From the IMG/VR virus record IMGVR_UViG_3300035698_008359, positions 1 through 26,700 of that record: a stretch of DNA of 26,700 nt; one strand, written 5' to 3'. This document shows, one piece after another, positions 23,157 through 26,342 of the stretch; the stretch's first letter is position 1; each line of letters begins with the position of its first letter. Position numbers and translations under genes: made by a program. The DNA is from a virus. The notes under the pieces are model-generated. The model was not told the origin of the DNA. It worked only from the letters and a program-made list of their open reading frames with translations, and made no database searches.

Positions 23157-23310
23157 ATTGCGCTCTTAATCTTATTCCTTATCTAGATACTTATCTTTTT
23201 CTTGATCCTTTTCTATATCTATATATTTATATATATCTTTTTCTTTTTCTTTTTCTTTAAAAGAGGCTTAACCCTTACTTAACCCTTACTTAACCCTTGC
23301 GCTACCCTTG
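23157..23310 (-). other. Putative replication origin: 11-bp iterons beside an AT-rich tract
   Basis: Tandem units CTTAACCCTTA at 23267-23277 and 23278-23288, CTTAACCCTTG at 23289-23299 and a degenerate CGCTACCCTTG at 23300-23310 repeat with exact 11-bp period. They overlap the last codons of the initiator-like gene. Next to them (23190-23266) is an AT-rich stretch with three CTTTTT hexamers and TATATATTTATATATAT, suited to strand opening. Iterons at an initiator gene followed by an AT-rich tract is the lambda-type origin arrangement. No convincing gene is seen in 23157-23278. Confidence 0.6.
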
Positions 23311-23689
23311 CTTTCCTGTCTATCTCTTTGTTTAAAATCTCAAAATCTATAGGAAATCCTTCGTTCTTTAAGTCGTGTTTTTCAATTAAATCAATAACGT
23401 ACATGTGGGGCTTGCAAGTAGCCTTTAGTTTTTTGTACTGGAAAAGAACAAAATCCTTTATGAGATATTTATTATTGTCTATTTTTTTAATATGTTCTGA
23501 AAATATGTCCACGTCTGTCTCAGTAATATTTTCACCGATCATAAAAGAGGCCAATTCTATGTCTACTTGGAAGACACCAAGATTGTCGCATATATCCAAA
23601 AGGTAAAACCAAAGCACTTTATTCTTAGGAGTCAGTTTCCTAAACCAGGGCTTTTTCCATTTGTCAGTATCAGTGAATCTCTTTGACAC
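23279..23689 (-). CDS. Replication initiator-like protein, N-terminal winged-helix type
   Basis: The 136-aa protein starts at GTG 23689 with GGAGG before it: MSKRFTDTDKWKKPWFRKLT, then KNKVLWFYLLDICDNLGVFQVDIELASFMIG and KYLIKDFVLFQYKKLKATCKPHMYVIDLIEKHDL. This N-terminal domain is shared by many phage replication proteins (DnaD/replisome-organiser type), which normally go on to a C-terminal part. Here the frame ends ARVAQGLSKG at a TAA lying within the 11-bp iterons, whose non-triplet period closes all frames. The protein may be naturally short, or shortened by a change in repeat number. It likely binds the adjacent iterons (inference). Confidence 0.65.
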   Translation of the reverse strand: MSKRFTDTDKWKKPWFRKLTPKNKVLWFYLLDICDNLGVFQVDIELASFMIGENITETDVDIFSEHIKKIDNNKYLIKDFVLFQYKKLKATCKPHMYVIDLIEKHDLKNEGFPIDFEILNKEIDRKARVAQGLSKG

Positions 23690-23709
23690 TTTCTGCCTCC
23701 TAAAAAGAA

Positions 23710-23743
23710 GCCCCTTGATAGCTTATGCGAGGAATCAAGGGGC
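23710..23743 (-). terminator. Rho-independent terminator in the leader of the initiator gene
   Basis: On the leftward strand GCCCCTTGAT, a 14-base loop, and ATCAAGGGGC form a perfect 10-bp stem followed by TTCTTTTT. The Shine-Dalgarno GGAGG of the initiator gene starts right after the T-run, so the terminator sits in that gene's leader and would act as an attenuator. Its loop GCATAAGCT is complementary to AGCTTATGC found 63 bases upstream. Confidence 0.8.
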
Positions 23744-23804
23744 CTATAAGTTAACTCGCTTTAGAAACGAGAAATAAATTTAATTGTGCTGCATAAGCTT
23801 GGTT

Positions 23805-23833
23805 AATTTATATTGTTAAAATTAGTTTGTAAA
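23805..23833 (-). promoter_or_regulatory. Candidate promoter upstream of the attenuator
   Basis: On the minus strand TTTACA (23833-23828) is followed after 17 bases by TAAATT (23810-23805), or after 15 bases by TATAAA (23812-23807). Either would start RNA close to 23800-23797, at or just before the segment AGCTTATGC that can pair with the terminator loop. The match is moderate, but the position between two genes and ahead of a terminator supports it. Confidence 0.45.
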
Positions 23834-23844
23834 GCCGATTGTAA

Positions 23845-24950: not shown

Positions 24951-25616
24951 CTATTGTTGCCCGAACTTAAGTCCTAAGGTTGTTAGCATTTTATTCATAT
25001 CATAAATAAACTCATCTACACACTCGTCAAATTTTTCTTGCATTTTCAAATCTCTATCTATTGTAACCGCGTGGAACATACGACCGTTAAAACGAGGATC
25101 GTATTCAGCAAAAATATATTGGTCAGTATTTAAAACTCTCATTCCATACTGAACTTGCTTTATCCACTCGTCTTTTATTTCTCCGTTACATATAAAGTTT
25201 ACATAGTTTTTAGAATTCCAAGGACATTTTATCTCAACGGGAAGCGGGGCATCTGCAACAACTCCATCCGGCGAAACTAACTCTCTAAAAGTGTCGTCTT
25301 TGTAGGCAAACGGAACCTCTTTTATTGTTAATCCTGTTTGAAATTCTAAAGCACTCCGGGCACCCTCTTCCGCTTGAATTCCCCATGCGAGAGCTTTAGC
25401 ACTTACCGGCTCCGGCATTTCTCGCGTTGCAATTTGAGCAACTAGGCTGCACATATAATCTATCCTGCCTTTTGTTTTTCTACCCTTTAAAACTTCAGAG
25501 GCTTTACTGGCGGAGATTACTCCGAGTTTTCTGTGTGTCCACTCAGGCGTTAGCTGTTTAATTTCGTGAAGATCATTCTCTTCTAGCTTTCTCATTATCT
25601 TTTCATAGAAATTCAT
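24951..25616 (-). CDS. YqaJ-family viral exonuclease (lambda Exo-like)
   Basis: The 221-aa protein has the features of the YqaJ family: TPEWTHRKLGVISASKASEVL (residues 23-43), AWGIQAEEGARSALE, RELVSPDGVV (Asp117), PVEIKCPWNSKN (126-137, Glu128 and Lys130) and KQVQYGMRVLNTDQYIF. Asp, Glu and Lys form the PD-(D/E)XK metal site. Such enzymes degrade one strand of double-stranded ends to feed an annealase; no RecT or Erf gene is seen in the window, so it may lie just beyond the right edge. The start overlaps the previous stop (ATGA). Confidence 0.88.
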   Translation of the reverse strand: MNFYEKIMRKLEENDLHEIKQLTPEWTHRKLGVISASKASEVLKGRKTKGRIDYMCSLVAQIATREMPEPVSAKALAWGIQAEEGARSALEFQTGLTIKEVPFAYKDDTFRELVSPDGVVADAPLPVEIKCPWNSKNYVNFICNGEIKDEWIKQVQYGMRVLNTDQYIFAEYDPRFNGRMFHAVTIDRDLKMQEKFDECVDEFIYDMNKMLTTLGLKFGQQ

Positions 25617-26215
25617 TTACCACCTCTTTGATTTGGTTTAAATAATGCATCATGATCCGACCATCCTATGCTTTTTCTAGATCTTATTCTACCAGGAGGA
25701 ACCTCTAAAGCCTCGGCCCATCTAAAAGCGTTCTGAGATACCCCATGTGCGAATAGATTTCTCGAAACGCTCGTATTTGCTGACTGCTCCTTTTTTGTGG
25801 CCCACCTACAATTATTAGGAAAGTAACCCGAGTTATTATCTATCCTATCAAGAGTATGCTTTTTACCAGGCTTATCTCCCATGTCTTTAAAAAATAAATC
25901 TGGTGAGATTTTCCATCTATCACAGACGGTTATTCCTCTGCCTCCATAACGACTATACGTAGGATCTTTTTTATTGTGGCACCTTGCAATCATTCCAGCC
26001 CATGTAATATATAGTGGGTGCCCGGATAGTCCATGTGTTCTATATCTGTCAGCCTTTAGGCAACCACAAGACTTAATACGACCAGTTTTAATATGATTAA
26101 TTCTTATTCTTTTAATAACGCCGCATTGACACAAGTAATTACCCATTTTATTATTACCCTGATGACCGCTTTTGGATAAAAAAGTTAATCTAGATGAATC
26201 CTTATTCACTTTCAC
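25613..26215 (-). CDS. HNH/AP2-type free-standing homing endonuclease-like protein
   Basis: A GTG at 26215, nine bases after GGAGG, gives MKVNKDSSRLTFLSKSGHQG and a 200-aa protein; an ATG at 26239 is the alternative start. The N-terminal part has CQCG ... SCGCL, a zinc-binding module, followed by RTHGLSGHPLYITWAGMIARC, YSRYGGRGITVCDRW, FFKDMGDKPGKKHTLDRIDNNSGYFPNNCRWATKKEQSANT. This is the standard layout of a phage family of HNH-like proteins; DRIDNN..Y.P.NCRW carries the probable catalytic core. The C-terminal 50 residues look like a DNA-binding helix pair (NAFRWAEALEVPPGRIRSR). It overlaps the zinc-ribbon gene and sits inside the recombination block, as expected of an inserted mobile gene. 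Confidence 0.75.
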   Translation of the reverse strand: MKVNKDSSRLTFLSKSGHQGNNKMGNYLCQCGVIKRIRINHIKTGRIKSCGCLKADRYRTHGLSGHPLYITWAGMIARCHNKKDPTYSRYGGRGITVCDRWKISPDLFFKDMGDKPGKKHTLDRIDNNSGYFPNNCRWATKKEQSANTSVSRNLFAHGVSQNAFRWAEALEVPPGRIRSRKSIGWSDHDALFKPNQRGGK

Positions 26216-26342
26216 TATCACAATCCTCCACTTCATCACTCGTTGTTATTATTCCGGCTCCGCATTTTGGGCAGTCCTCAATATACTCCATTGTAAAGCC
26301 CACCCATTCACACAAAATGCACCGATGTTCTAGGCAGCTCAT
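26202..26342 (-). CDS. Zinc-ribbon micro-protein (46 aa)
   Basis: An ATG at 26342 overlaps the stop of the upstream gene (ATGA) and encodes MSCLEHRCILCEWVGFTMEY followed by IEDCPKCGAGIITTSDEVEDCDSESE. CxxC pairs at 8-11 and 24-27 form a classic zinc ribbon. The acidic tail overlaps the start of the endonuclease gene. Small zinc ribbons of this kind are frequent near phage recombination genes; the role is unknown. It explains the otherwise empty 26240-26338 region. Confidence 0.75.
   Translation of the reverse strand: MSCLEHRCILCEWVGFTMEYIEDCPKCGAGIITTSDEVEDCDSESE

Follow-up and report, generated by a model that had tools for sequence, protein, structure and literature searches.

The window analysed here, the whole 26,700-nucleotide viral stretch, carries on its minus strand a 136-aa open reading frame with a GTG start (23279..23689), a homologue of Pan5_50 that encodes a putative replication protein. 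Immediately 5' of its start codon (23689) and Shine-Dalgarno sequence AGGAGG (23696..23701) lies an intrinsic terminator (23743-23702, minus strand). Its 10-bp stem is formed by the 5' arm GCCCCTTGAT (23734..23743) and the 3' arm ATCAAGGGGC (23710..23719), which enclose a 14-nt loop, TCCTCGCATAAGCT (23720..23733), and are followed by the U-tract TTCTTTTT (23702..23709). The last nine bases of the loop, K' (GCATAAGCT, 23728-23720), are complementary to a segment near the 5' end of the leader, K (AGCTTATGC, 23791..23799), which is the exact reverse complement of that part of the loop. Both the terminator and this 9-base complement had been proposed in a sequence-only reading of the window, and both were confirmed on the minus strand. 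The small linker hairpin CTCG...CGAG (23755..23771, minus strand) named in the same reading is present in the minimum-energy fold, with its end at 23755 instead of one base away at 23756. A promoter-like site, TTTACA-17-TAAATT (23805..23833, minus strand), matched 9/12 in a consensus scan and would place the RNA start near 23798, at K. We consider this site weak, since sites of this kind occur in the region just as often as chance predicts. The order of promoter followed by K is also present in relatives.

Even allowing one mismatch, the K 9-mer has two sites only in the window, K and K', and no 9-base complement of the loop was found elsewhere in the window besides K and the loop's own complement. 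A loop complement of at least 9 bases within the 100 nt upstream arose in ~0.05 per cent of 20,000 shuffles (~5e-4), a value for one preset test of a pairing that was itself first picked by free search of the sequence. A second pairing suggested earlier, between CTCGC in the loop and GCGAG in the small hairpin, is at chance level; because at least 5 bases were reached in ~46 per cent of shuffles, we give it no weight. It would also compete with K' for two bases.

Plain folding of the leader gave the terminator and the small hairpin (z = -2.4). The complement of K extends into neither terminator arm, so K cannot invade the stem, and the leader is better described as a pseudoknot or kissing element than as a classical either/or antiterminator. 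In stepwise minimum-energy folds, K is the partner of the loop once the loop is complete and is displaced only when the 3' arm has grown by 8 nt; the terminator then wins, within a model that cannot draw pseudoknots.

Homologues of the 136-aa product were found in Pseudanabaena phage Pan5 (Pan5_50) and in about 500 IMG/VR stretches, and the window leader stands directly before this Pan5_50-like gene, as kissing-loop terminator leaders stand before that gene or its transcription unit. The product had no match in Pfam or PHROG. Its N-terminal domain was modelled as winged-helix-like (pLDDT 83), and a Foldseek search with the domain model gave no significant match, with winged-helix domains at Z under 6. 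In one relative (L002) a DnaB helicase gene follows the homologue, and in another the gene directly upstream of the class A leader (L104:1461-1889) encodes a DnaA C-terminal (DNA-binding) domain. Given the winged-helix-like model, the DnaB gene after, and the DnaA C-terminal domain before, a role as a replication (initiator) protein is plausible. The end of the window's reading frame is an 11-bp tandem repeat, GTTAAGTAAGG (23266-23298, minus strand), after which lysine/glutamate-rich sequence continues in another frame. The window gene looks shortened or frameshifted, as its relatives reach ~250 aa with a KDKDKD linker.

No close relatives of the window's exact leader were found, and the covariation data come from other phages with homologues of the downstream gene, whose products are 38-50 per cent identical to that of the window and whose leaders we read directly. 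Many of these homologues have, at the head of the same unit, a 5' hairpin (H1) with a 7-8-nt loop perfectly complementary to the loop of a terminator. In class A (L104 type) and class B (L156 type), the promoter-like motif TAnnTTTG, H1, a linker, and an intrinsic terminator occur in that order, and the terminator's U-tract reaches, or nearly reaches, the first ATG. We take TAnnTTTG in these leaders to be a Bacteroidota-type promoter. Where a homologue has no leader immediately in front of it, covariance models of class B (R1) and class A (R2) often find one a few hundred bases upstream of the gene (e.g. L126, L134, L171, L226). In several phages (among them L126:1640-2008 and L171:1652-2008), homing-endonuclease-like reading frames of HNH or GIY-YIG type lie directly behind the terminator, between the leader and the replication-type gene, so the leader keeps its place beside the promoter.

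The H1 and terminator loops differ from phage to phage and match within each: GTACGAA/TTCGTAC in L104, CTGCGAA/TTCGCAG in L105, GAGCGAA/TTCGCTC in L111, AGTCCAG/CTGGACT in L113, AGTCGAG/CTCGACT in L121, GTAGGAT/ATCCTAC in L152, GTCGGAT/ATCCGAC in L153, GTCGCAT/ATGCGAC in L156, GTTGCAG/CTGCAAC in L190, ATGCGAC/GTCGCAT in L217, GTCGTTT/AAACGAC in L222, GTACGAG/CTCGTAC in L171, and GTACCAG/CTGGTAC in L175. The loops of class D (L144) are GTGGCAC/GTGCCAC, and the loop pairing is 6 bp in class C (L141, L142, L154) and in L216. Across 14 distinct loop 7-mers, every cognate pair matched perfectly (14/14) and no non-cognate pair did (0/182).

We counted the kissing helix as a pseudoknot on alignments made by sequence alone. 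In class A, 97.3 per cent of cells were paired overall and 100 per cent in the kissing helix, with changes on both sides in 5/7 of its pairs; in the kissing helix of class B, 95.5 per cent of cells were paired and 4/7 pairs had changed on both sides. The whole-structure covariation score was 0.40 and 0.51 in the two classes, against 0.02-0.12 in slid controls, in which 30-48 per cent of cells were paired. These counts are not independent events, because the aligned sequences are related. One row misplaced by MAFFT (L217, alignment A4) was kept and counts against pairing, and alignment A6, with shifted L190-type rows, was left out of the counting. These comparisons make it near certain that the relatives have a covarying loop pairing. 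Differences per site in class A were 0.38 in the loops, 0.24 at third codon positions, and 0.008 in the linker, which suggests that the loop letters are under pressure to diverge yet stay self-matched. Recombination or relaxed sequence constraint could be another source of the high loop diversity in class A.

Compared with classes A and B, K of the window lies outside any hairpin and the terminator loop is 14 rather than 7 nt. Folding placed no stable hairpin around K, and the upstream segment is not presented in an H1 loop. What the window does have is a terminator loop perfectly complementary, over 9 bp, to an upstream segment. The class A model R2 had no match in the window record, and we therefore file the window as the same kind of device and not as a member of class A. 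Its nearest gene homologues by sequence (L002, L003, and L018 among others) have no such leader directly upstream; L002 has a stable hairpin before the start, with neither a U-tract nor a clear partner for the loop. The window leader thus seems to be a diverged form of such an attenuator that has no H1 hairpin.

We conclude that the window leader is probably a transcription attenuator in which the terminator loop pairs with K, placed before a phage gene likely to act in replication. We put this no higher than probable because no close relatives of the window leader were found and it is unlike the other leaders in hairpin, loop, and model match. The sequence-only reading had proposed a kissing or switch attenuator. 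The kissing part is well supported, mainly by covariation in the relatives; a classical either/or switch is not supported, since K cannot invade the stem. On leaving RNA polymerase, the loop would pair with K while the 3' arm of the terminator is still to emerge. In the stepwise folds this partnership lasts for 8 nt of synthesis past the completed loop, so the pairing would be available as polymerase nears the U-tract. The stem would then close around the K-paired loop to give a pseudoknotted (kissing) terminator. In such a model the stem and the K pairing can coexist, with the nine paired bases adjoining the 3' arm and the five free loop bases spanning the deep groove. We lean slightly towards a pairing that promotes or locks in termination over one that delays terminator formation, since the relatives conserve the loop-loop helix along with both stems. 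Read-through would then depend on competition for K or K', whether from a protein, from a second leader RNA, or through the speed of transcription. More speculatively, loops that change faster than third codon positions and yet stay self-matched hint that the released leader may also act on leaders carried by further copies of the genome, controlling dosage or superinfection with a specificity of its own.

Attenuators usually work through an upstream segment that steals one arm of the terminator stem. In plasmids pT181 and pIP501, where the upstream segment competes for a stem arm, the outcome is decided by an antisense RNA transcribed from the complementary strand, and in ColE1 the kissing loops of RNA I and RNA II are 7 nt. 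We know of no system in which a conserved leader hairpin and a terminator loop pair within one RNA. Mutually exclusive pairing with the terminator 5' arm, as in pT181 and pIP501, is absent in the window, where K pairs with the loop only; here the stem would stay intact, and we identified no antisense gene in the sequence. As far as entries in reference lists tell (PMC8383071 for pT181, PMC7430163 for pIP501), these plasmids attenuate transcription ahead of a replication initiator gene, as the window leader probably does ahead of its putative one. In ColIb-P9 (IncI-alpha), an RNA pseudoknot before the replication initiator gene repZ is a switch that opens repZ translation (PMC8383071); the partner in the window leader is instead an intrinsic terminator. 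Loop-loop kissing between RNA I and RNA II takes part in ColE1 replication control and can be stabilised by the Rop protein (PMC8683028), but those are two RNAs from opposite strands, whereas here both loops would be in one leader and one of them belongs to a terminator. With the loop and not a stem arm paired, the window type would show a terminator gated through its loop. It would also provide a concrete way to study when, or how far, these uncultured phages replicate. The naturally orthogonal loop pairs make cis and trans action directly testable.

Trans action alone might explain the leader. In satellite phage P4, the CI RNA pairs with the leader segments seqA and seqC, which leads to termination, and the replication genes are not expressed (PMC4825925). 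Like the P4 CI or c4-type RNA, the window has self-complementary segments and a premature terminator in the leader of a probable replication gene (PMC4825925); it differs in having no c4 match in Rfam and in that the partner lies inside the terminator loop itself. A terminated leader of this kind would serve as an immunity or dosage RNA, pairing with nascent leaders of other copies and forcing their termination. We regard this as possible but doubtful. The leader heads a probable replication unit, and the diversification of loops beyond third codon positions is what specificity would predict, but intramolecular pairing should beat intermolecular pairing, and an integrase in 2/17 records means that lysogeny is not indicated for most of these phages. 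Equally tentative is the wider proposal of a widespread, uncatalogued class of phage attenuators built on kissing between a leader hairpin and the terminator loop, whose rapidly diversifying, self-matched loop codes would provide phage-specific dosage or superinfection control of replication genes with neither an antisense gene nor a repressor protein.

An ordinary terminator with a chance 9-base complement, in which the hairpin would end or dampen upstream transcription and K would have no role, is unlikely. The window is a single case with no close relatives and no H1, unlike the other leaders, and one 9-base complement also occurred among about 150 unrelated terminator-like hairpins (L081, A/T-rich and within a gene). 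Chance is countered by the shuffling value of ~5e-4 and by the same arrangement before the homologous gene in other phages, where it is selected according to the covariation. In a scan of the collected loci, 16/164 distinct terminator-like hairpins had an upstream loop complement of at least 7 bases; ten were a kissing leader or its antisense reading, from the window or relatives, and the remainder were single A/T-rich or coding cases.

We think it very unlikely that the leader is a ligand-binding riboswitch, in which a small molecule bound at the kissing junction or a conserved linker would set termination. A pseudoknotted leader with a terminator, and the almost invariant class A linker, would fit such a device. 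The loop letters are free to vary, though, and each of the four classes, A to D, has its own linker, with no visible aptamer core in common. Rfam 15 gave no family over the gathering threshold in the window, nor at E up to 5 with lax filters. Its three matches in the relatives stayed below threshold, and none fell on a kissing leader's own strand, which bears out the earlier remark that no known riboswitch class was recognised. Least credible is a DNA-level operator with K and K' as half-sites of a DNA-binding protein and their complementarity a mere inverted-repeat symmetry: on one sequence a DNA inverted repeat is indistinguishable from RNA pairing, but in the relatives K and K' sit in RNA hairpin loops with a U-tract, and between L104 and L105 they change together, each pair internally matched, while the first 115 residues of the adjacent protein are identical, and this speaks against K being read by a DNA-binding protein.

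In the open-access literature searched, we found no published description of a kissing-loop terminator leader. The terminator stem pattern GCCCCTTGAT...ATCAAGGGGC has matches in two contigs (L102 and L103). Searching viral contigs for the DNA pattern K-N50-80-K' returned 9 stretches, which we set aside as unrelated because none has a terminator. A single-protein search of GTDB genomes gave no homologue; with alignment A1 as query, four loci were retrieved, and we recognised no kissing leader at any of them. Among 296 genomes of the phylum of G001, R1 had no match and R2 had six weak matches whose loops lack a complement and which we rejected as generic terminators. Pan5 is the only cultured phage with a homologue; the gene there overlaps an HNH reading frame and has no leader, and neither R1 nor R2 matched the Pan5 stretch.

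Marine leaders (L024, L025, L034, L035, L040, L063, L083) have terminators, and no conserved kissing pair was seen in them. In six of these (L034, L035, L040, L024, L025, L083), the terminators have structured loops of 40-60 nt and lie ~135 bases before the gene start; one of them contains AATTCAGCGATTATACTTTGTG as a conserved core. The loop of L040 includes eight bases, GTTAGTAA, whose complement follows the U-tract; L035 lacks this match. Elsewhere in the window, the DNA of a reading frame at 25613-26239 (minus strand) shows ~70 per cent identity, over some 150 bases, to homing endonuclease genes from phages of Staphylococcus and Alteromonas.
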